64,000 bases of DNA from Pantoea eucalypti. GTDB taxonomy: Bacteria; Pseudomonadota; Gammaproteobacteria; Enterobacterales; Enterobacteriaceae. This document shows positions 1,626-11,922 of this stretch, piece after piece. The position numbers and the translations under genes were made by a program. The stretch's first letter is position 1; every line of letters starts with the position of its first letter. The notes beneath the pieces were generated by a model. That model was not told the DNA's origin. It searched no databases and saw only the letters and a list, made by a program, of their open reading frames with translations. The stretch spans positions 3,720,001 to 3,784,000 of the forward strand of contig NZ_CP045720.1 of the NCBI RefSeq assembly GCF_009646115.1, written 5' to 3'.

Positions 1626-2960
1626 TCAGTCCGGCAACTGCACCACGCATTCAGCATGCCAGCCTGGCGGTAACGGCGCGGGCCTGTTGATCACCAGGTT
1701 GTGCAGTTGCAGGTTCTCTACCCCGCGCGCAAACAGGCCCGGCAAACCGCCGGGATAGCGCTCTACGCCAAAGGCTTCACCGGTTTTCGGGTCAAGTTTG
1801 TAGGCGTTATCCAGCCCCATGCCGGTCGGTGAGTCGGGGTTACAGGGTGGTCGCACGTCATAGTGTCCCTGCGTCATCGGCGACACGGTCTGCCGCATCT
1901 GAAGCTGGCTGATAACCACATCGCGTATCCAGCCCGGTTCTGCCGCATGCAGGTTAACCGCCCCTTCTGCTACACCTGTCATGTTGCTGAACTGCACCTG
2001 CTCAACGATGCCAGGCGTGATGGCAGGATCGCGGCGGCGCACCGAAATATGCAGCGGATCGGCTTTGCCCCAGTGACAGGGCGGCGCGTGGTGACAGGCA
2101 AAAGTCAGGTTACTGAACAGCAGACGGCGTATCGCACCGCCGTCACGCGACAGAATGCCGATGCCCCGGTTGGAATCAAAAATAGTGCAGCCGGTTACCG
2201 TGACATCTTCCACATCATCCCAGGTTTCGGTGCCGATTTTAAAGGCGCAGCTGTAACTGCGCAGCAGACAGTTGGTGATCATAATCTGCCGCGCCGGACG
2301 CCGCAGCGCGGCCGGTTTGTGGGTGGTTTTAATGCAGATAGCGTCATCGGCGGCACTGAGGTAGCTGTTGCTGACAAATACCGCCTCGCATCCGTCAATA
2401 TCCAGCGCATCGGTATTCGGCATGGTCATGGCGTTGTCGATAGTGAGATGGTCGATATGCACATGGCGACAGCTCACCAGATGCACCGTCCACATCGGCG
2501 CCTGCACGATGGTAAAGGCGGTCAGCGTCACCTGCTCGCAATCTTCAAACACGATAATGCGCGGCCGGTCAGGACGCGGCAGGCGATAACCCTGCTCATC
2601 CCGCTCAGCGGCGAACCAGGCTTCACCCTCGCCATCGATGCGGCCAGTGCCGCTGATAGTGATATTGCGCTGGCCCAGCGCATAGAGCAGCACGTTATGG
2701 GACTTCTCAGCACAGCTGAGTGCCTGCACCGCCTGGTAGTCAGCCAGCCGCGGACTGGCGATCAGCACCGCACCCGCTTCCAGGTGCAGTTCAAAATCAG
2801 ATGGCAGATTCAGGCAGCCGCTGCGATAACGCCCGGCAGGCAAGGTAAGACGCCCCCCGCCGGCCGCCGCAATCTGATCCATGGCGCGCTGCAGCACGGC
2901 CGTGTCCGGGGTTTCGCCATCGGCGACAGGATGAAAATCAGCAAGGGAAAGGTGCATCAT
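1626..2960 (-). CDS. glycoside hydrolase family 28 (polygalacturonase-like), cytoplasmic
   Basis: Right-handed parallel beta-helix glycosidase of family GH28, 444 residues. Catalytic-region motifs are visible: NTDALDID near residue 182, AADDAICIK near 203, and KIGTETWDD near 241. A later GKADPLHIS segment is, as I recall, typical of one bacterial GH28 subgroup. The usual HG and RIK motifs of classical endopolygalacturonases are not evident. There is no signal peptide, so it should act in the cytoplasm on imported oligosaccharides. It is the last gene of the binding-protein / permease operon, 100 bp downstream of the second permease. Start ATG follows GGGAGACGC; the next codon is also ATG. The exact bond cleaved cannot be read from the sequence. 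Confidence 0.8.
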   Translation of the reverse strand: MMHLSLADFHPVADGETPDTAVLQRAMDQIAAAGGGRLTLPAGRYRSGCLNLPSDFELHLEAGAVLIASPRLADYQAVQALSCAEKSHNVLLYALGQRNITISGTGRIDGEGEAWFAAERDEQGYRLPRPDRPRIIVFEDCEQVTLTAFTIVQAPMWTVHLVSCRHVHIDHLTIDNAMTMPNTDALDIDGCEAVFVSNSYLSAADDAICIKTTHKPAALRRPARQIMITNCLLRSYSCAFKIGTETWDDVEDVTVTGCTIFDSNRGIGILSRDGGAIRRLLFSNLTFACHHAPPCHWGKADPLHISVRRRDPAITPGIVEQVQFSNMTGVAEGAVNLHAAEPGWIRDVVISQLQMRQTVSPMTQGHYDVRPPCNPDSPTGMGLDNAYKLDPKTGEAFGVERYPGGLPGLFARGVENLQLHNLVINRPAPLPPGWHAECVVQLPD

Positions 2961-3060
2961 GCGTCTCCCGCAGGATTGAGGAAGAGAAATTCCAGCACGA
3001 CACGGCGCGGGAAACCTTTGTCTGGTCGCCAGTACGCCGTTTCGTGCGGGATATCACAAA

Positions 3061-3876
3061 TTACTTCACGGCCCCTTCAGTGACGCCGCTGATAAACTTG
3101 CGCTGGAAAATCAGGAACACCACGATCAGCGGCATAATCACAATCATTGCGCCCGCCATCAGCACCGGAATGTCGATGGTGTTTTTGTTCTGGAAAAACA
3201 TCATGCCAATCGGCAGCGTGCGCAGCTCATCCTTGTTGACCAGAATCAGTGGGATCAGAAACTCGTTCCAGGTCCAGATAAACAGCAGCAGCCCCAGCGT
3301 CGACAGCGTTGGCCAGATTGCCGGCACCAGAATGCCCCACAGAATTTTGACCCGCGACGCCCCATCCATCACCGCCGCTTCTACCAGCTCTTTCGGCACC
3401 TGCTGAAACGCGCTGGCGATCATCAGCGTGGTAAAGGGCAGCGACAGGGCGATTTGCGGCAGGATCAGCGCCAGATAGGTGTTGGTGAGCCCCATCCAGC
3501 GCAGCTCGTGATAGAGCGGAATGATAAAGGCTTCACTCGGCAGCACCATCCCCAGGGCCAGCATCGCCCCAATCACTTTTTTACCAGGGATCTTCAGCCA
3601 GGCGAAACCAAAACCAGCCAGAATACCCAGCAGCACGCTGAACAGTACGACCGGAATCACCACCAGCACCGAGTTGAGGAAGTAGACGTTAAAATGCCCC
3701 TGCTGCCACGCGGTCACGTAGTTTTTGAAATTCAGCGAGGCTGGCAGCGTGAAGATGCCCTGAAACAGCTCCATCTGGGTTTTAAACGAGGTCATCAGCG
3801 CCATCAGAAACGGCAGAATCGTCATCAGCGCTACGATCCAGATCAGCGCGCGTGAAATCACCGGCGTGCTTCGCAT
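3061..3876 (-). CDS. ABC sugar transporter inner-membrane permease (MalG type)
   Basis: Second permease of a carbohydrate ABC importer, 271 residues with about six membrane helices. The cytoplasmic EAA loop that docks on the ATPase is visible (ELVEAAVMDGASRVKILWGI, about residues 163-182). The sequence ends in KFISGVTEGAVK, as usual for MalG/UgpE-like permeases. The start codon overlaps the stop of the upstream permease by one base (TGATG), so the two are translationally coupled. The partners are the permease at 3876-4748, the binding protein at 4806-6137 and, on the other strand, the ATPase at 7300-8391. Confidence 0.9.
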   Translation of the reverse strand: MRSTPVISRALIWIVALMTILPFLMALMTSFKTQMELFQGIFTLPASLNFKNYVTAWQQGHFNVYFLNSVLVVIPVVLFSVLLGILAGFGFAWLKIPGKKVIGAMLALGMVLPSEAFIIPLYHELRWMGLTNTYLALILPQIALSLPFTTLMIASAFQQVPKELVEAAVMDGASRVKILWGILVPAIWPTLSTLGLLLFIWTWNEFLIPLILVNKDELRTLPIGMMFFQNKNTIDIPVLMAGAMIVIMPLIVVFLIFQRKFISGVTEGAVK

Positions 3877-4748
3877 CAGTAACGCTCCTTTAAGGCCAGA
3901 TGAATCAGATAGTTGATCCCTAAAACAATAATCATGCTGAACACCGCCACCGACGAGGCGTAGCCAAAGTAGTGCAGGTCAAAGCCCTGCTTATACATAA
4001 AGATGTTGGTGACCATGGTGGAGGTGCCTGGGCCGCCCTGCGTCATCACATAGACCAGGTCAAAGGCTTTCAGGCTGGCGATCACCGTCAGCAGCAGCGC
4101 AATCCGCAGCTCGGGCCGCAGGCCGGGCAGCGTAATACGCATAAATTTCTGACGGCGCGATGAGCCATCCAGATCGGCGGCTTCCAGCAGTGAGGGATCC
4201 ATACGCTGCAGGCCTGCCATAAACAGCACCAGACAGAAGCCGAAGAAGTACCAGGTCGCGACCAGACCGACAGCGGGCAGCGCCCAGGTAAAATCACCCA
4301 GCCAGGAGAGCGCCAGCTGGGGCAATCCGATCGCGCGTAATATCTGGTCGATGGGGCCAAACGCCGGGTTATAGAGCCAGCGCCATACTACACCCAGCAC
4401 CGCCATTGGCATGATATAGGGCAGGAAGAAGAGAATGCGCAGCACGCTACGTTCGTTATTGTTGCGCGTGTCATACAGAAAGCTGCAGAGCAGCAGGCCG
4501 ACGCCAATCGGCAACAGGGTATAGAACAGCATCAGGATGGCGTTATTGCCCAGCGCAATCCAGAACACCGGATCGCTGAACATCCGCATGTAGTTGCTGA
4601 TGCCACTAAACACCGGCAGTGAGGTGCCGTCCCATTCGGTAAAACTGATGCCCAGCGAGGCCAGCAGCGGGAAGAGCAGAAACACCGCATAGACCAGCAC
4701 CGCAGGCAGAACATAGAGGAAATTACGCCAGCTGCTTAAATTCAACAT
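3876..4748 (-). CDS. ABC sugar transporter inner-membrane permease (MalF/UgpA type)
   Basis: First permease of the carbohydrate importer, 290 residues with six predicted membrane segments. The EAA-type loop is visible (SLLEAADLDGSSRRQKFMRI, about residues 186-205), followed by a conserved FDLVYVMTQGGPG segment typical of MalF/UgpA-like permeases. It lies 57 bp downstream of the binding-protein gene, and a strong stem-loop (4778-4800) fills that gap. It heterodimerises with the next permease by family analogy. Confidence 0.9.
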   Translation of the reverse strand: MLNLSSWRNFLYVLPAVLVYAVFLLFPLLASLGISFTEWDGTSLPVFSGISNYMRMFSDPVFWIALGNNAILMLFYTLLPIGVGLLLCSFLYDTRNNNERSVLRILFFLPYIMPMAVLGVVWRWLYNPAFGPIDQILRAIGLPQLALSWLGDFTWALPAVGLVATWYFFGFCLVLFMAGLQRMDPSLLEAADLDGSSRRQKFMRITLPGLRPELRIALLLTVIASLKAFDLVYVMTQGGPGTSTMVTNIFMYKQGFDLHYFGYASSVAVFSMIIVLGINYLIHLALKERY

Positions 4749-4777
4749 AACCCTACTCGTGGTTCAGAACGATGCTC

Positions 4778-4800
4778 AGGCCCGGCTGTTCGCCGGGCCT
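4778..4800 (-). terminator. intercistronic stem-loop behind the binding-protein gene
   Basis: A perfect 9-bp stem (AGGCCCGGC / GCCGGGCCT) with a 5-nt loop and no T-tract lies between the binding-protein and first permease genes. Such hairpins, known from malE-malF, stabilise the upstream mRNA or partly stop transcription, giving more binding protein than permease. That role is inferred here; the hairpin itself is visible. Confidence 0.7.
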
Positions 4801-4805
4801 CCGGC

Positions 4806-6137
4806 TTAATGCTTCAGGGTTTTCAGGTAACGCTGATAGTTGTTATCAAAATTCACCACCATCTGATCGGGGGTCTGACGACCCGCCAGCAGCAGCTGGA
4901 CGTTCTGATTCAGCTCGGCGTTCATGGTCGGTGTTGCCCAGTCCACGTAGTGGCCTAAACCGTCGTAGTCGTTGAGCGTCAGCCAGACCTGATACGCTTC
5001 CGCCAGCAGCGGATTATCCGCTGGCATTTTGGCCGCTTTGTTCGTGCTGGCCGGCAGGAAGCCCACTTTCAGCCAGCGGTTCGCCATGGCATCAGAGACC
5101 ATATAGTTGATGAACTTCGCTGCACCTTCCTGCTGATCTTTGCCTTTGGCGGTGCTGGTAATTGAGAACGCCAGATCGGTCCCGCCCACCATCAGCGGCT
5201 GTTTCACGCCTTCACCGGCAGGCATCGCGGCGAAGTGAATATCTTTGTTGTCTTTAAACTGGCCGAGATACCACGTGCCGCTGACCAGGAACGCAGCCTG
5301 ACCGTTCTGGAACAGCGTCGCCGCATCGTCGTGACCAATGCCCTGGAAGCCAGGGAAGAAGTAGCCTTTGTCGGTCCAGCTCTTCATCATCGTGGCGGCA
5401 TTGACCAGCTTGCTGTCTTTGAAGGTGCCGCCCACATCGTAAATCAGATTATCCAGCGTCTTGCGGTCATGGCTTTCAATCTGCGCCTGCCACAGCGTGC
5501 TAAGCAGTTGCTGGCCCATGTTGCCATCCAGCAGGCCGAGCATCATCGGCGCGGTGCCCTGCTGTTTCAGCTTCGCCATGGCACTCTCCAGCTCAGCCAG
5601 CGTTTTCGGCACCGCAATGCCCGCTTTGTCCAGCACCGCTTTGTTGTAATAGAGCCCGACCATTTCGCCCAGGCTGGCGATGCCATACAGCTTGCCGCTA
5701 CCAAACTCGCCGCTGTCTGACCAGCGGTTACGTTTCAGAATCGAGTCCGGGAAGCGGGTAGTCCAGCCGTCGCTGGCGGCATAGCTATCGAGCGGCAGCA
5801 ACAGCTTATCTTTAACCAGCGAACCCATATCGCCGCCGCCCTGGTTGACCTGGGCGATCTGCGGGCCATCACCGGCAGTCAGTGCCAGCTTCAGCGGAAT
5901 ACGGGTATCTTCAAAGGAGTGAACCGAGCGGTTAATCACGATGCCGGGATTCTGCTGTGAGAACTCTTTAATCCCTTCATCCACCGCAGCGGTCTGCTCA
6001 GGGTAGTTGTAGATATCCCACTCATTCAGAGTGACAGCAGCGTGGGCGGCATGAGAGACGCTGCCCGCCAGCAGGCCCGCTACCAGCAGCCGACCCACAT
6101 TGCGAATTCGGAACGAACGAACGGAAGAAACAGACAT
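4806..6137 (-). CDS. ABC transporter periplasmic sugar-binding protein
   Basis: Family-1 extracellular solute-binding protein, 443 residues, first gene of the operon. The N-terminus has a typical Sec signal (basic start, hydrophobic [14 protein letters not shown] core, cleavage near AHA-A). The mature protein has the bilobal binding-protein pattern, with [24 protein letters not shown] and a later [13 protein letters not shown] segment. I chose the ATG at 6137, which has an AGAAGGTGAG site at good spacing; a GTG three codons upstream is the alternative. It delivers an oligosaccharide to the two permeases. The bound sugar is unknown; neighbours suggest a uronate- or amino-sugar-containing oligomer. 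Confidence 0.9.
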
Positions 6138-6687
6138 TATGCTCACCTTCTTCAGACCAGGGTCGGCATCCTTTCATCTCACCGCCTGACATCCTGCAGG
6201 CTGCAGCCGCACACAAACGCACTCACTCATACTTACTTTAATAGAAAAATAAAGTCAAACAGCCTGCCGACCGAATTGTCAGGCTGTGAGCACGCGCAAA
6301 TAAACAGTGACATGGCGTGAAAATCAGCACGCCGCGCTGGCATTTACACCATTAACCGTGGCGGCACGTCGCCAGCCACTTTTTCTGCAGCAGGAGATGC
6401 CAGAGGAATAATCGCAAAATAACGTCCTGATAAAACATATGAAAATCCTATCACGCTCACACTTTTCTCTTTTGACCGGCCGTGAATCTGCCGCCAGCCG
6501 CCCTGTTCCGGGCGTGTTGGCGATCACAGTTGTGCATCCCGATGCCGGTAAACATTGCCGAACCGCCTGCGTTAGTGCGATAAGGTAATTATTCTATCTT
6601 GAAAACTAAGTCCACTTTCATTAACGTAACTTTTACCTGCGGAGCTGTTCAATCCCTGACCGGTTCCCTCACTCACGAGAACTCACC
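6138..6687. promoter_or_regulatory. divergent control region of the oligosaccharide locus
   Basis: This 550-bp gap separates the leftward binding-protein operon from the rightward acetyltransferase-ATPase unit and must hold both promoters. It contains a 6-bp inverted repeat (ACTTTA at 6235-6240, TAAAGT at 6250-6255) in an AT-rich patch, a plausible operator for the locus's ROK regulator. It also has a half-matching CRP-like site around 6450-6470 on the minus strand. I see no convincing gene in it. The operator assignments are inference. Confidence 0.35.
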
Positions 6688-7287
6688 ATGGCGAATCAAG
6701 GTGTCATTCGTCCGGCCACACCGGCGGACTACCCGGCGCTCTACCGCATCTGCCTGGAAACAGCCGATGCGGGCGGCGATGCCCGCGCGCTCTACTCCGA
6801 TCCTGACTATCCCGGCCAGCGTTTTGCCGTGCCCTATGCGCATTTTGCGCCGGACTTTGCTTTTGTACTGGAGCAGGACGGTGAGGTACAGGGTTACGTG
6901 GTCGCCGCGCCGGATACCCGCGCGTTTGAAGCGCAGCTTCAGGCCGAATGGTGGCCGCAGTTGCAGGAGAAATATCGCGATCGCAGCGCCAGTGCCCCGC
7001 TCGACAGCAAAGTGCTCGATTCGATACGCCATCCCGAGCAGGCCGCTGAGATCCTGGTGACGCAGTGGCCTGCTCATCTGCATATCAACCTGCTGCCGGC
7101 GGCACAGAAAGGCGGCTGGGGTCGCCGGATGATTGAGCATGAACTGGCGGCGCTCCGCGCTGCTGGCGTCAGTGGTGTTCATCTTGGCGTCAGCCTGCAG
7201 AACGAGCAGGTTTGTGCCTTCTATGCGCGCATGGGGTTTACCCCAATCATGCGCAGCAATGCCATCTACATGGGCCAGTTACTCTGA
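6688..7287 (+). CDS. GNAT-family N-acetyltransferase
   Basis: GCN5-related acetyltransferase of 199 residues. The acetyl-CoA binding segment is visible in the C-terminal half (LPAAQKGGWGRRMIEHEL, about residues 135-152, matching the family Q/R-x-x-G-x-G/A signature). The final strand-turn has a NEQVCAFYARMGF motif typical of GNAT proteins. The N-terminus IRPATPADYPALYRIC is also characteristic. It lies 12 bp ahead of the transporter ATPase and is clearly co-transcribed. The link to a sugar importer and a glucosamine-kinase-like protein suggests it may acetylate an amino sugar. That is inference; protein or small-molecule substrates remain possible. Confidence 0.8.
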   Translation: MANQGVIRPATPADYPALYRICLETADAGGDARALYSDPDYPGQRFAVPYAHFAPDFAFVLEQDGEVQGYVVAAPDTRAFEAQLQAEWWPQLQEKYRDRSASAPLDSKVLDSIRHPEQAAEILVTQWPAHLHINLLPAAQKGGWGRRMIEHELAALRAAGVSGVHLGVSLQNEQVCAFYARMGFTPIMRSNAIYMGQLL

Positions 7288-7299
7288 GTGAGGTAGCCG

Positions 7300-8391
7300 A
7301 TGACCAGCCTGCGCTTGCAGAATGTGAAGAAGTCGTATGAACACGTCAATGTCATTCATGGCATCGATCTGACGATAAACAGTGGCGAATTTGTCGTGTT
7401 TGTTGGGCCATCTGGCTGCGGCAAGTCGACGCTGCTGCGGATGATCGCCGGGCTGGAGGAGATCAGCAGCGGGCAGTTGCTGATTGAGGAGCAGGACATG
7501 ACACAGCAGCCCGCCACTGAGCGCGGCATTGCTATGGTGTTTCAGTCTTATGCGCTCTACCCCAACATGACGGTGCGCGGCAACCTGGCGTATCCGCTGG
7601 AGGTAATGAAAAAGTCCAAAGCGGAGATTAACGAGGCGATAGCCCAGACGGCCGCCCGCCTGCATCTCACCGAACTGCTCGACCGCCTGCCGCGTGCGCT
7701 CTCTGGCGGACAGCGACAGCGCGTGGCAATTGGCCGGGCGATTATCCGTCATCCGCGCATCTTCCTGTTTGATGAGCCACTCTCTAACCTTGATGCAGAG
7801 CTGCGCCTGCAGATGCGCATTGAGATTGCCCGGCTGCACGCCTCGCTTGGCAACACCATGATTTATGTCACCCACGATCAGCTGGAGGCAATGACGCTGG
7901 CTGACCGCATCGTGGTGCTGCGTCAGGGCCGCATTGAGCAGGTCGGTGCACCGCTGACGCTTTATCACGACCCGGATAATCTGTTTGTCGCCGGTTTTAT
8001 CGGCTCACCAAAAATGAACTTTCTGCGGGCGGAAATCAGCGCCACGGGCGCGGGGGAAGTGCAACTGCGGGTGCCGGAACTGAAGATTGAGGGGCTGGTG
8101 CTGAAAATCGCCGCCGACTGCCGCGAGGGACAAACCGTCACGCTGGGCATTCGTCCTGAACATTTCCAGCCTGCCGCGCAGACGCCGGACGCATTGCGCT
8201 TTCACGGCGAGCTGGCTTATGGCGAGATGCTGGGTCATACCAACTATCTCTACCTGGATATCGGGCGTGAACAGATGCTGGTCGTGGAAGAGCGCGAGGC
8301 GACGACGCGCGAGCTCGGAACCCAGGTTGAACTGGGCTTTTCTGCCGCGCACTGCCTGCTGTTTGATGAGCAGGGACTGCGCCTGCGCTAA
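7300..8391 (+). CDS. ABC sugar transporter ATP-binding protein (MalK/UgpC type)
   Basis: The ATPase that energises the importer, 363 residues. Walker A (GPSGCGKST, about residue 37), the ABC signature ([15 protein letters not shown], about 134), Walker B ([12 protein letters not shown]) and the switch histidine (YVTHDQ) are all intact. A C-terminal TOBE-type domain from about residue 240 marks it as a MalK-like CUT1 ATPase. It is encoded away from its permeases, in a divergent unit behind the acetyltransferase. An overlapping 9-bp-stem terminator follows it. Confidence 0.92.
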
Positions 8392-8408
8392 GAACGCGTG
8401 GAAACAAA

Positions 8409-8435
8409 AACGGGCGCCGCAGCGCCCGTTTTTTT
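8409..8435 (+). terminator. rho-independent terminator, shared by convergent genes
   Basis: A 9-bp perfect stem (AACGGGCGC / GCGCCCGTT) with a CGCA loop is followed by a run of T. It ends the acetyltransferase-ATPase unit. An A-run lies on its left side, so it may also serve the leftward ROK gene. Confidence 0.9.
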
Positions 8436-8449
8436 ATTTGAGAGATCAC

Positions 8450-9568
8450 TCAGGTGACCGGCTCTTCATCGGCCTGCGCCGCCAGCAGATCAAGCAGCCG
8501 GTTGACGGCAAAACCCGCCGCACCCAGCGCCCACATCCGGTTCGATTCCGTCAGGAACTGCAGCGGCGTCATCTGTGGCGTCAGTTTAAGCCGGTAGGCC
8601 TGGAAGCTCTGAGTGATGTGATCGAGCAGAATGCGCGACGCCATGTGCGGCTCCATCGCCAGATAAACCACATCCGGATCGTAGGCCACTGACAGGTTCG
8701 CCAGCGAAATGCCCAGCTCACGTCCTGCTTCTTCCAGCACCGCCAGTACCTCAGGCGCAGGACGCTGATCCAGCGCCTGCAACGTGAGGCCTTCCACCGG
8801 TTCCTGCGCTGCAAGCCGCTGCAGAATGGCACGCGATGAGGCGACATCCTCCAGCAGACGCAGCGAGCCGTCCCCCACCAGCCCATTGCCAATCTCGCCC
8901 GCTTTGCCGTGACGACCACGGTAGAGTTGACGATTCAGGATGATGCCCGCACCAATCCCTTTGCCATAGGTGGCGATCACCGCCGACTGTGCATTGCCAA
9001 GCTGACCAAACACCAGCGCCGCCATTGCCATCGCGTTGGCGTCGTTCTCGATAAATACCGGCAGTGAGAAACGTTCTTCCAGCAGACGCGCAATCGGGAC
9101 GTTGTCCCAGTCGAGCACTTTAGAGCGAATGCAGTAGCCATTTTCAGCATCCACCAGACCCGACAGTGCCAGACCAATCGCACCCACCCGCTTCTCCTCC
9201 ACGCCGCGCAGGAATTTCGCCAGCGCATCGCCAAGCTGGCGGGGTGTCAGCGTGCCTGTGGGCATCTGCTGTTCGCCCAGCAGATTGCCGCTGAGATCGG
9301 TCATGACGATAAGATTACGTTCTGCATTGAGCTGAATGCCAATCACGCTGGCGCGATCGGGATTGAGGCCCAGCAGGGTTTTTGGCCGCCCCATTGATAC
9401 GCGACGCAGCCCCAGCTCCTGCACAATCTCCTGCGCCAGCAGGCGATTAGTGGCCTGCGACACGGTCGACATGCTGAGTCCGCTTCGGACTTTCAGGTCT
9501 GACTGGCTGATCGGCGCATTTTCAACAATCAACCGCAGAATGCGCGCGGTTACGTTGGGAGCGGTCAT
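8450..9568 (-). CDS. ROK-family transcriptional regulator lacking the zinc motif
   Basis: NagC/Mlc-like ROK repressor of 372 residues. An N-terminal MarR-like winged helix (ISQSDLKVRSGLSMSTVSQATNRLL, about 19-43) precedes the sugar-kinase fold with the phosphate-binding KGIGAGIILN loop (about 205-214). Where typical ROK proteins have GAGEIGH and a C-x-C-G-x-x-G-C-x-E zinc site, this one reads KAGEIGNGLVGDGSLRLLED, with no cysteines and His replaced by Asn. It therefore probably does not bind zinc. It lies behind the sugar kinase and is the likely regulator of the whole locus. Confidence 0.85.
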   Translation of the reverse strand: MTAPNVTARILRLIVENAPISQSDLKVRSGLSMSTVSQATNRLLAQEIVQELGLRRVSMGRPKTLLGLNPDRASVIGIQLNAERNLIVMTDLSGNLLGEQQMPTGTLTPRQLGDALAKFLRGVEEKRVGAIGLALSGLVDAENGYCIRSKVLDWDNVPIARLLEERFSLPVFIENDANAMAMAALVFGQLGNAQSAVIATYGKGIGAGIILNRQLYRGRHGKAGEIGNGLVGDGSLRLLEDVASSRAILQRLAAQEPVEGLTLQALDQRPAPEVLAVLEEAGRELGISLANLSVAYDPDVVYLAMEPHMASRILLDHITQSFQAYRLKLTPQMTPLQFLTESNRMWALGAAGFAVNRLLDLLAAQADEEPVT

Positions 9569-9584
9569 AAGTTCCTCGGGTTAT

Positions 9585-9606
9585 CTGGCGGAAGAAGCTC
9601 CGCCAG
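9585..9606 (-). terminator. intercistronic stem-loop between kinase and ROK genes
   Basis: A perfect 8-bp stem (CTGGCGGA / TCCGCCAG) with a 6-nt loop fills most of the 40-bp gap between the kinase stop and the regulator start. It has no T-tract, so it more likely tunes relative expression than fully stops transcription. Confidence 0.6.
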
Positions 9607-9608
9607 CG

Positions 9609-10493
9609 TCAGATCGGTAATCGGACAGGCGCCAGCTGCTGCACCAGTATCAGCGCGCCGCTCAGGGCATCGCCCTGCGGCGTCACCAGCCGGGCCTGAA
9701 TATCGTCGTCCAGCCAGCGCTGAATCGGCGTGGCCAGGCCACCCATCAGCGCCACCCGCCCGCTGCTCAGCGCAATCAGACGGCGCACCATCAGGCCGAT
9801 ATCGGCGGCAGTCTGATGCAGCAGATCCTGAGCGTGACGATCGCCTGCGTCGGCGGCTGCAAAAATTCGCGGCACTACGCGGGCCCAGTCTGCAGGCGTC
9901 GCTGAGCGCGTCCAGAGCAGCATGGTTTCCGGGCTGTCGTCAAACTGCGTCATCAGCTGCTGTGTAAAGGCGCTCTGTGGAATGATCGCCTCATGGGCCA
10001 GCAGCGCCAGACGCAGTGCACGACGACCCAGCTCAGCACCCGATCCCTGATCAGAGAGGGCAAAGCCCCAGCCACCCAGCAATGTAAACTGCTCGCCATC
10101 CCACGCGGCTCCCTGACTGCCGGTGCCGATAATAAAGACAGCGCCCGGTGCGCCGGAATGTGCGCCCGCACAGGCGATTTCCACATCGCTGACCACCTGT
10201 AACGCCGCACAGGCAGGCTGCCAGCTGGCAAGCCTTGCCTGCACCGAGGCGACATTGGCCCCCGCTAATCCGGCAACCAGCGCGGTCTGCGCCAGAGCCT
10301 CCGGGGCTAATCCCGCGTGTGACAATATCCGGTCAATCAGTTGCCCGACGCAGGTCAGCGCCGCGTCGTAATCTGACCAGACGTTAGCTGGACCGCCAGT
10401 GGCTTCCGCCAGCACACGGCCCTGCAGGTCGGTTAACCGCGCACGACACTGTGTACCGCCGCCATCAATGCCAAGGAGATAGTGTGGTTGCAC
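9609..10493 (-). CDS. BadF/BcrA-type sugar kinase (glucosamine / N-acetylglucosamine kinase-like)
   Basis: ASKHA-fold kinase of the BadF/BadG/BcrA/BcrD ATPase family, 294 residues from the GTG start. The phosphate-1 loop LGIDGGGTQCRARL is near the N-terminus, phosphate-2 GTGSQG lies mid-protein, and GGWGFALSDQGSGAELGRRA follows, as in bacterial glucosamine and N-acetylglucosamine kinases. I prefer the GTG at 10493 because GGAAGGA sits 5 nt upstream; an ATG 11 codons earlier has no clear site. It should phosphorylate the monosaccharide released from the imported oligomer. An amino sugar is the family-based guess. Confidence 0.82.
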   Translation of the reverse strand: MQPHYLLGIDGGGTQCRARLTDLQGRVLAEATGGPANVWSDYDAALTCVGQLIDRILSHAGLAPEALAQTALVAGLAGANVASVQARLASWQPACAALQVVSDVEIACAGAHSGAPGAVFIIGTGSQGAAWDGEQFTLLGGWGFALSDQGSGAELGRRALRLALLAHEAIIPQSAFTQQLMTQFDDSPETMLLWTRSATPADWARVVPRIFAAADAGDRHAQDLLHQTAADIGLMVRRLIALSSGRVALMGGLATPIQRWLDDDIQARLVTPQGDALSGALILVQQLAPVRLPI

Positions 10494-10764
10494 GCGCTTC
10501 CTTCCCTGATTAAGGGTTATAGCCATAATGAGCGAACGATAGGATAAAAAAACTTAAATCGCAATAACAAATAAATATGGCAAAAACATATCGACACTTT
10601 TCCCTTAATTTACATGGTTATAACAAAAATCACCCTCGCAAAATGCGCAGCACGTTATTGACATTAGTTTTTCTGTCGTAATAAGTTGGTGGTCAGATTA
10701 TCAACAGGCGCGTCCGGACACAGGCGGGCTATGCATCATCCGATTTCAGGAGCAGGGGTTTAAC
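10494..10764. promoter_or_regulatory. divergent promoter region with candidate ROK operator
   Basis: The region separates the leftward kinase-regulator pair from the rightward oxidoreductase gene and is AT-rich. An imperfect inverted repeat lies at 10655-10684 (TTATTGACA, then TGTCGTAATAA), resembling TTATT/AATAA-flanked sites of NagC/Mlc-type ROK repressors. The repeat is visible; its role is inferred. Confidence 0.4.
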
Positions 10765-11922
10765 ATGAAAGTAGGCATTATCGGTCTCGGCTTTCGTCTG
10801 TCCCACGTGATCAAAGAGTTCAGCAAAGCCGACGACGCCTTCTCGGTAGTGGGTTATTACGATCCGGCGCCCGCCGGACTGCCTAATCTGCACAGCTTTG
10901 GTATCGCGCCCGGCCAGTCCTTTGCGTCCATCGACGCGCTGCTTGAACACGGCGGAATGGATGTGGTGCTGGTTGGCTCACCCAACTTCCTGCATCTGGA
11001 ACATGTGGGTCAGGCGCTGGCGGCGGGCTACACCGTGTTTACCGAAAAGCCGGTGGTGATTAATGAAGAGCAGACCATGGAGATGGCGAAACTGGTGCGC
11101 CAGTATGGCGAGGCACGCATTCTGGTTGGTCTGGTGCTGCGTTACTCCCCGCTCTATCACGATCTGCTGGCGGCACGCGATGCCGGACAGTTGGGTGAGA
11201 TCACCTCGATCGAGGCGACAGAACATATCAAGCCTTACCACGGCGCATTCTTCCAGCGCGACTGGCGACGTCTGGAGAAGTACGCCGGTCCCTATATTCT
11301 GGAAAAATGTTGCCACGACATCGACCTCTACCAGGGGCTGTTACAGGAGCGTCCGATCCGCGTCGCCAGCTTTGGTGGCCGGAAATCCTTTACCCCCGCG
11401 CATGCGCCGCAGGGTGCGATCACCGCGGAGTCAGAGCTCTACCACGTGAAACCCAGCGGCTGGTCGAGCACCGACGCCGTCTTCGACAGCGACGCTGATA
11501 TCGTCGACTACCAGACTGCCCTGATTGAGTACGAAGGCGGCGCAACACTCGCCTTCCACGCCAACCTGAACGTGCCGGATGAGTTCCGCCGTTTCTGTGT
11601 CATGGGCACTGACGGCATGGCGGAAGGCGACTTCGTACGAAACTACTTCCGTGTACATAACGCGCGCAGCGGTGAGAAAGAGGTCGACACCGCCTACAGC
11701 GGCAACGCTTATGATGGCCACTACGGCGCAGATGCGCTGATGGCCGAAGAGATCGTTAAACATATTAAACAGGGAACACCGCTGAAAGTTTCAGTCGTGG
11801 ACGCGCTGGAAGCGGGCCTCACCGCCATAAAAATCGATGAGGCGCGCAAAACCCGCAGCGTAGTGGATATGCGTGAAAGCTGGCAAACATTTGACGCCAA
11901 CCTGGGAAAAACCGGGGCCTGA
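10765..11922 (+). CDS. Gfo/Idh/MocA-family NAD(P)-dependent oxidoreductase
   Basis: Sugar dehydrogenase-type protein of 385 residues. An N-terminal Rossmann fold opens with VGIIGLGFRLS. The family's substrate-binding lysine motif reads TEKPVV near residue 95, and EKCCHDIDLYQGL (about 177-189) holds the usual catalytic D-x-x-H region in a variant form. The start has an AGGGG ribosome-binding site. It is divergent from the kinase and regulator and most likely oxidises or isomerises the released sugar. The substrate cannot be named from sequence. Confidence 0.85.
   Translation: MKVGIIGLGFRLSHVIKEFSKADDAFSVVGYYDPAPAGLPNLHSFGIAPGQSFASIDALLEHGGMDVVLVGSPNFLHLEHVGQALAAGYTVFTEKPVVINEEQTMEMAKLVRQYGEARILVGLVLRYSPLYHDLLAARDAGQLGEITSIEATEHIKPYHGAFFQRDWRRLEKYAGPYILEKCCHDIDLYQGLLQERPIRVASFGGRKSFTPAHAPQGAITAESELYHVKPSGWSSTDAVFDSDADIVDYQTALIEYEGGATLAFHANLNVPDEFRRFCVMGTDGMAEGDFVRNYFRVHNARSGEKEVDTAYSGNAYDGHYGADALMAEEIVKHIKQGTPLKVSVVDALEAGLTAIKIDEARKTRSVVDMRESWQTFDANLGKTGA

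Follow-up and report, generated by a model that had tools for sequence, protein, structure and literature searches.

A conserved locus of Pantoea eucalypti that joins an O-GlcNAcase HAT-like acetyltransferase to a candidate NAD+-dependent glycosidase, with a predicted role in the catabolism of a glucosamine-containing saccharide

Which sugar is handled by a locus that combines an ABC importer, a GNAT acetyltransferase, a ROK regulator, a BadF-type kinase, a Gfo/Idh/MocA protein (hereafter Gfo) and a GH28 hydrolase? This question is raised by a stretch of 64,000 nucleotides from Pantoea eucalypti (the window; positions 3720001-3784000 of contig 1 of the 4.8 Mb genome), in which nine such genes lie side by side. 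The gene set is real and forms one regulatory and evolutionary unit. On the sequence evidence given below, we hold it somewhat more probable than an even chance that the locus serves the uptake and catabolism of a small glucosamine-containing saccharide under ROK control, with the activities predicted here. Amino-sugar uptake and catabolism is itself known; unusual is the presence of an acetyltransferase of the O-GlcNAcase (OGA) family and of a Gfo-type candidate glycosidase within it.

For the analysis of conservation, the GNAT protein was searched in named bacterial genomes and the best 80 of 416 loci were retained. Among these, 48 loci (L014-L061) carry gammaproteobacterial titles, apart from one labelled Martelella alba, and 43 of them have full flanks. 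A gene was counted as present at ≥38% identity across half of the query within 20 kb, in any order. The two permeases, the solute-binding protein, GNAT, the ATPase, the ROK regulator, BadF and Gfo occur together within 20 kb in all 43 full-flank loci, including two rearranged members (L047 and L058). The set was found in records of Pantoea, Erwinia, Kosakonia, Enterobacter, Klebsiella, Mangrovibacter, Ewingella, Celerinatantimonas and Vibrio; close GNAT relatives among the named records are from Pantoea and Erwinia. Since the 43 loci had been chosen for holding the GNAT gene, presence and absence were checked independently on 60 related genomes. Of the 36 same-genus genomes, 25 have a strong match to GNAT (E <1e-80), and exactly these 25 also have a strong match to Gfo (E <1e-200; Fisher 1.7e-9, shared descent not corrected for); the other 11 show at most weak GNAT-family matches (E >1e-5) and no Gfo at E 1e-60. 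The earlier note on this DNA had described all nine genes as one locus. This holds for eight of them, while GH28 is only loosely attached (30 of 43 loci). In one genome (G003, contig 4), GH28 is in two pieces (about 3462518-3463830) and Gfo carries one stop codon (3471615-3472766), which suggests from the sequence that the locus may be decaying there.

In the window, the genes are arranged in divergent units. The two CUT1 ABC permeases (MalG/UgpE type, 3061-3876, and MalF/UgpA type, 3876-4748; both reverse strand, PF00528, in 43 of 43 loci) and the solute-binding protein (4806-6146, reverse strand; SBP_bac_8/SBP_bac_1, with a signal peptide-like N-terminus by hydropathy) are divergent from GNAT (6688-7287, forward strand) and the ABC ATPase of the MalK/UgpC type (7300-8391, forward strand; UgpC subfamily 447.5 bits, cut-off 432). 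The NagC/Mlc-like ROK regulator (8450-9568, reverse strand; ROK and winged helix) and BadF (9609-10526, reverse strand; PF01869) are divergent from Gfo (10765-11922, forward strand). The GH28 gene (1626-2960, reverse strand), a PglB-like accessory member, matches Pfam GH28 88 bits above cut-off. All nine genes named in the earlier note are open frames with the coordinates, strands and families it gave. The gene layout confirms its division of the importer over two divergent units, and its joining of GNAT and ATPase in one unit agrees with the 12 bases between the GNAT stop codon and the ATPase start codon.

Both divergent promoter regions carry the sequence TTGAC(A/T)TTA-TTTT, which was derived from 10 and 9 selected sequences and then checked on all 30 and 29. 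Genome-wide, the pattern TTAKTTTTN{7,9}ANTAAKT matches 5 times and 3 of these matches fall in the locus, compared to 1 match for the same pattern written backwards as a control. The three sites lie over the presumed promoter of the solute-binding protein (6231-6252, reverse strand), upstream of GNAT (6587-6609, reverse strand) and over the presumed Gfo promoter (10664-10686, forward strand), and all are kept across genera. The strict pattern was found in 24 of 30 and 21 of 29 homologous regions and a relaxed one in 28 of 30 and 29 of 29, while in 20 dinucleotide shuffles the maximum was 0 and 1 for the strict and 1 and 2 for the relaxed pattern. This sequence would most naturally be read as a repressor site that both regions share and the ROK protein binds; the top NCBIfam match of this protein is NagC (109 bits, cut-off 650). 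Part of the similarity between the regions may be the -35 element of the promoter itself. The BadF side of its promoter region carries a separate conserved block. The two remaining genomic matches were dropped, as no sugar gene lies within 3 kb; one (L094) has only short frames nearby, and 20 bases after the other (L098) a frame begins that resembles a chemoreceptor by eye. A chance neighbourhood of GNAT and kinase is ruled out by the synteny together with the common operator-like motif. The same two observations bear out the placement of both genes in one pathway by the earlier note, which had named their belonging to unrelated units as the finding that would speak against it.

The GNAT protein is similar to the O-GlcNAcase HAT-like family (OgpAT, SsAT) over its whole length, with the long insertion that separates strands 3 and 4 included. 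The acetyl-CoA P-loop of such enzymes reads Q/R-x-x-G-x-G/A (PMC3919268). It is intact here as QKGGWG (residues 140-145), and Q140 and G145 are invariant in 18 sequences. By sequence, GNAT, with its acetyl-CoA loop intact, is thus assigned to the O-GlcNAcase HAT-like family, a membership that had been missed when it was correctly called a GNAT. From its gene context, it probably acetylates a glucosamine glycoside. A role as the membrane transacetylase NagX is ruled out, because GNAT belongs to a different, soluble family. The fungal glucosamine acetyltransferase RmNag is absent from the sequence matches of GNAT (E up to 0.1) and from the 50 rows listed of its fold table.

Outside the Gammaproteobacteria, the neighbours of GNAT differ between lineages. 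In Agrobacterium and Microvirga, ROK, Gfo and GNAT are consecutive and the frames of Gfo and GNAT overlap; in the Agrobacterium locus (L111 2474-7304) these three genes are divergent from an ABC importer unit that ends in an inositol-monophosphatase-family gene. In one locus (L158 7754-12787), a GH84 gene follows a binding protein and two permeases and directly precedes GNAT, while an ATPase gene and a SIS-domain gene run divergently from them. It is the sole GH84 gene among the 198 genomes of its family (f71), which would correspond to the Rhodobacterales. In the Deinococcus gobiensis context, BadF and an N-acetylmannosamine-6-phosphate epimerase gene are present within 4 kb, though not contiguous. 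The contexts examined for GNAT relatives in Streptomyces, Mesorhizobium and genome G047 hold no sugar cluster of the kind found here. A protein of 570-595 residues adjoins GNAT in many Rhizobium loci, as seen in L074 (10639-12420) and L068 (13332-15047). One of these two copies has weak similarity to GH116/GDE, the other has no Pfam match, and neither has an NCBIfam match; it is possibly an undescribed glycosidase family.

For BadF, the PDB relative 1zc6 is titled "probable N-acetylglucosamine kinase" (E 1.3e-36), and we regard N-acetylglucosamine kinase activity as likely. The genes nagA and nagB lie side by side elsewhere in the genome that holds the window, and PDB relatives of the solute-binding protein include the chitin-oligosaccharide binders 7ehp and 7eho. 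The most complete arrangement was observed on a plasmid of Falsirhodobacter algicola, where binding protein, permease, permease, Gfo, ATPase, BadF, ROK, a DMT gene, GNAT, nagB and a NagA-type amidohydrolase follow each other on a single strand. Identities to the window copies are 42% for the binding protein, 56% and 59% for the permeases, 50% for the ATPase and 46% for GNAT; Gfo is present in two halves across the start of the record (47% and 54%). The suggestion that acetylation may precede phosphorylation fits this run, which adds nagB and a NagA-type gene.

Gfo homologues at E 1e-90 occur in 15 of 398 genomes of the phylum. In 18 kb contexts fetched around them, a NagA-type gene lies within about 8 kb in 7 of 13 cases outside the genus, the seven coming from six genera, compared to 0 of 20 control Gfo/Idh proteins (Fisher 4e-4), which were hand-picked from about 100 matches and drawn from six of the same genomes. 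Among the f71 genomes, AgaS and NagA genes accompany the Gfo homologue in 6 contexts, 5 of which also contain KbaZ. A Gfo paralogue (53%) in genome G029 lies in a cluster with KbaY, AgaS, NagA, KbaZ and AgaR, all above curated cut-offs, an ABC importer and a NagK-like ROK kinase below its cut-off. In this N-acetylgalactosamine-type cluster (L106 1041-15232), ten proteins were scanned; among them no enzyme but the Gfo paralogue lacks an assigned step, and it is a candidate NAD+-dependent N-acetylgalactosaminidase. In Jiella, the cluster includes NagA and one or more ROK kinases besides GNAT, GH28 and Gfo, and that of Stappia contains NagB. In several loci the gene calls were made by longest-frame or codon-position heuristics and include antisense artefacts; the conclusions rest on tblastn and hidden Markov model searches. 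Because of the neighbour genes of the relatives and nagA/nagB of the own genome, taken together, the pathway would run on an N-acetylhexosamine-6-phosphate. BadF and the nagB neighbour favour glucosamine as the hexosamine, while the Gfo homologues have AgaS and KbaZ as neighbours, which speak for galactosamine in those relatives.

The identity of the glycosidase leads to Gfo. Its family had been recognised correctly in the earlier note, its kinship to NAD+-dependent glycosidases had not. The top solved relatives of Gfo are the GH188 sulfoquinovosidases 8qc2 and 8qc3, which rank above inositol dehydrogenase, and its fold table is led by 8qc2, 8qc3 and 8zn9 (a sulfoquinovosidase by title) with a margin of one to two Z units. 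Gfo keeps Lys107 of GH188 in the motif EKP as well as Glu189 and His193 in EKCCH, and both motifs are invariant in 18 aligned homologues. The structure model of Gfo is of low confidence for the stretch that surrounds the EKCCH loop (residues 154-186). From these sequence features, Gfo may work as an NAD+-dependent glycosidase and possibly is the core glycosidase of the locus; we put the chance of NAD+-dependent cleavage a little below even.

Several observations weigh against this interpretation of the locus and its enzymes. In Gfo, Arg166 of GH188 is replaced by Ile, Lys172 by Ala and Leu170 by His (EHIKPYHGA instead of EHRFPFLHK), and Tyr136, described in the available part of PMC10755693, aligns with Leu. 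The alignments of Gfo with GH188 end at query residue 206-207, before the second catalytic histidine, His321. BadF matches NagK_SO3507 (NF046058) over residues 15-297 of 305 with 218.9 bits, below the cut-off of 370, and GH28 reaches 426 bits against NCBIfam PglB (NF051861), below the cut-off of 600. In Falsirhodobacter, BadF and ROK are only 30% and 28% identical to the window copies. Ten of 32 plasmid contexts of GNAT were examined, and four of the ten lack such a contiguous set. A GNAT relative in G047 (41%) has no other gene of the set within 19 kb except a weak generic ATPase match. When any amino-sugar gene is counted, 7 of 13 Gfo contexts compare with 4 of 20 controls, which have a KbaY-like aldolase. 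Of the 6 contexts without an amino-sugar gene, three belong to a single genus, one is a second copy and two are distant members. Finally, in genomes G007 and G009 the importer, GNAT, ATPase, ROK and Gfo have no match in the fetched stretch, importers elsewhere not having been searched.

According to the available part of PMC11465081, GH188 binds the sulfonate through Arg166, the main chain of Leu170 and Lys172. Gfo lacks these side chains as well as Tyr136. By the residues compared it is therefore not a sulfoquinovosidase, and a sulfoquinovoside substrate is rejected because the side chains that bind the sulfonate are missing.

The rival explanation that survives best takes Gfo for an ordinary sugar dehydrogenase or keto-sugar reductase, in a locus that would salvage a sugar released outside the cell, either free glucosamine or a rare amino sugar. 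At the position where Gfo and GH188 have EKCCH with Glu189 and His193, however, the aligned inositol dehydrogenase reads LDMSIH. Moreover, no other glycosidase was identified among the proteins scanned in the aga-type clusters, where part of the frames was scanned. We consider this explanation rather unlikely.

The remaining two explanations concern GH28. No signal peptide is seen in it, in agreement with the earlier note; the maximal 12-residue hydropathy in its first 45 residues is 0.79, compared to 2.07 for the binding protein. The acidic motifs PNTD and AADD are kept, also in all 11 aligned clade members. SCAFKIGTE and RGIGILSRDGG stand in place of the canonical His and RIK motifs of GH28 polygalacturonases, and each of the 11 clade members has A[FL]KIG[TS]E and SRDGG. 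The GH28 copies of Jiella and Stappia exceed the PglB cut-off with 681 and 697 bits. GH28 occurs in 22 of 25 core-bearing same-genus genomes (one copy is split, with a stop) and in 2 of 11 core-less ones. The latter arrangement was observed in G007 and G009, where an open BadF frame followed by GH28 lies between MFS and tartrate dehydrogenase genes; such reduced loci with BadF and GH28 retained span L104 7549-9844 and L105 6693-8988. As the co-occurrence within the genus is partial and G007 and G009 keep GH28 without the core, GH28 is associated with the locus but separable from it, and it may have a further role together with BadF. In the window, a tartrate dehydrogenase gene (TTC, above cut-off; 473-1624) is convergent with GH28 at a gap of 1 base. 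This dehydrogenase gene occurs in 24 of the 43 full-flank loci, with Pantoea, Erwinia and Enterobacter among the labels of the records.

GH28 and the amino-sugar genes could be unrelated neighbours, with hydrolysis of pectic galacturonides beside amino-sugar uptake. The independent loss or retention of GH28 and the GH28-tartrate dehydrogenase junction, retained in both reduced loci, are consistent with this. On the other side, GH28 is associated independently in alphaproteobacteria, Vibrio, Celerinatantimonas and Mangrovibacter keep the association despite different outer flanks, and the co-occurrence of GH28 and core within the genus is significant, which makes mere neighbourhood unlikely.

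Conversely, GH28 could be a core enzyme that cleaves a galacturonic-acid bond in a mixed uronate-hexosamine glycan, with GNAT and Gfo handling the linked glucosamine. Candidates would be alpha-GlcN-(1->4)-alpha-GalA (GlcN, glucosamine; GalA, galacturonic acid) of the Erwinia-type lipopolysaccharide (LPS) core and, from plants, the glucosamine-uronate head group of glycosyl inositol phosphorylceramides (GIPCs), whose glycans have a glucosamine-glucuronate composition. In its favour, GH28 adjoins the importer in 30 of 43 loci, lies inside the clusters of Jiella, Consotaella and Stappia, tracks the core within the genus (22/25 vs 2/11) and is retained together with BadF in G007 and G009. According to the available parts of the sources, the E. 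amylovora LPS core has alpha-GlcN at O-4 of alpha-GalA (PMC5372575), and infection releases inositol phosphate glycans from plant GIPCs (PMC11496612). The absence of GH28 from 13 of 43 loci and the pectin-like setting of the GH28 relative in Rhizobium NZLR1, next to GH88 and an ABC importer, make an obligatory mixed glycan the least probable of these explanations. The substrate proposed in the earlier note, an oligomer with both a uronic acid and an amino sugar, is accordingly backed by the relatives in its amino sugar; the obligatory uronic acid is less supported, as GH28 is missing from these 13 loci and outlives the core in two genomes.

For the uptake and catabolism of a glucosamine-containing saccharide, the following route is proposed. 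The CUT1 importer would bring the saccharide into the cell, where GNAT would acetylate the free amino group of glucosamine, as glycoside or free sugar, using acetyl-CoA. Gfo would then cut the glycosidic bond via a transient NAD+-dependent oxidation, like GH188 and GH109 enzymes, BadF would produce N-acetylglucosamine-6-phosphate, and the housekeeping NagA and NagB would finish the route. GH28 would be an optional extra hydrolase for substrates that also bear a galacturonate-type residue. Possible substrates are partly deacetylated chitin fragments, alpha-GlcN-(1->4)-alpha-GalA of the Erwinia-type LPS core and plant GIPC head groups; the LPS-core disaccharide would give GH28 a role. The glycosidase partner appears to be exchangeable across lineages, being Gfo in the window, GH84 in one genome and, in many Rhizobium loci, an enzyme of the (alpha/alpha)6 type.

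Crystal structures of bacterial relatives of the O-GlcNAcase HAT-like domain have been available since 2013, with no function assigned in the literature examined. The HAT-like domain of human O-GlcNAcase is dead, and the conserved operon context ties an apparently live relative to hexosamine catabolism. From these contexts, a new clade of NAD+-dependent glycosidases with N-acetylhexosamines as substrates is predicted, and plant-associated Erwiniaceae and Rhizobiaceae would gain a nutrient route that is now annotated only as "ABC transporter, GNAT, oxidoreductase". A tentative idea, to which we give less credence than to its opposite, is that animal O-GlcNAcase owes its non-catalytic HAT-like domain to an ancestral cytosolic glucosaminide N-acetyltransferase encoded in bacterial sugar-import operons. 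Such an enzyme would re-acetylate glucosamine glycosides for an operon-encoded N-acetylhexosaminidase, which would be GH84 in one lineage and a new NAD+-dependent Gfo-type family here.

Among the matches listed from the open-licence literature, judged by titles and abstract starts with subscription papers outside the scope, no paper was recognisable as being about this gene set. Single parts of it resemble described systems, which are compared here as far as the available parts of the respective papers describe them. PglB of Agrobacterium (PMC6683767) belongs to the GH28 family like the window copy, but the latter stays below the PglB cut-off (426 vs 600). The GH188 sulfoquinovosidases (PMC10755693, PMC11465081) share the Gfo/Idh/MocA fold and Lys107, Glu189 and His193 with the window Gfo, whereas Arg166, Lys172 and Tyr136 are absent from it and His stands for Leu170; no sulfosugar gene was recognised in the clusters examined. 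In the OgOGA-OgpAT pair of Oceanicola granulosus (PMC3814719), an acetyl-CoA-binding GNAT of the same family is found as in our locus. Its partner there, encoded by the adjacent gene, is a GH84 N-acetylglucosaminidase, in contrast to Gfo and GH28 in the window, and its authors call the biological functions of the pair unknown. The GH84-GNAT pair of L158 resembles it, without the two species being equated. In the NagX route (PMC9007349), glucosamine is acetylated, phosphorylated and then deacetylated by NagA, as in our model. Unlike the window GNAT, NagX is a membrane transacetylase of another family and was proposed to act on periplasmic sugar. The C-terminal GNAT region of RmNag (PMC4680927), a tandem fungal GNAT fused to GH3, acetylates glucosamine and its oligomers, among them dimers prior to cleavage, and so enables their cleavage by the linked N-acetylglucosaminidase; its likeness to the window GNAT would be one of function only. 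By analogy, the predicted logic of the locus matches that of RmNag and of the NagX route for acetylated glucosamine.

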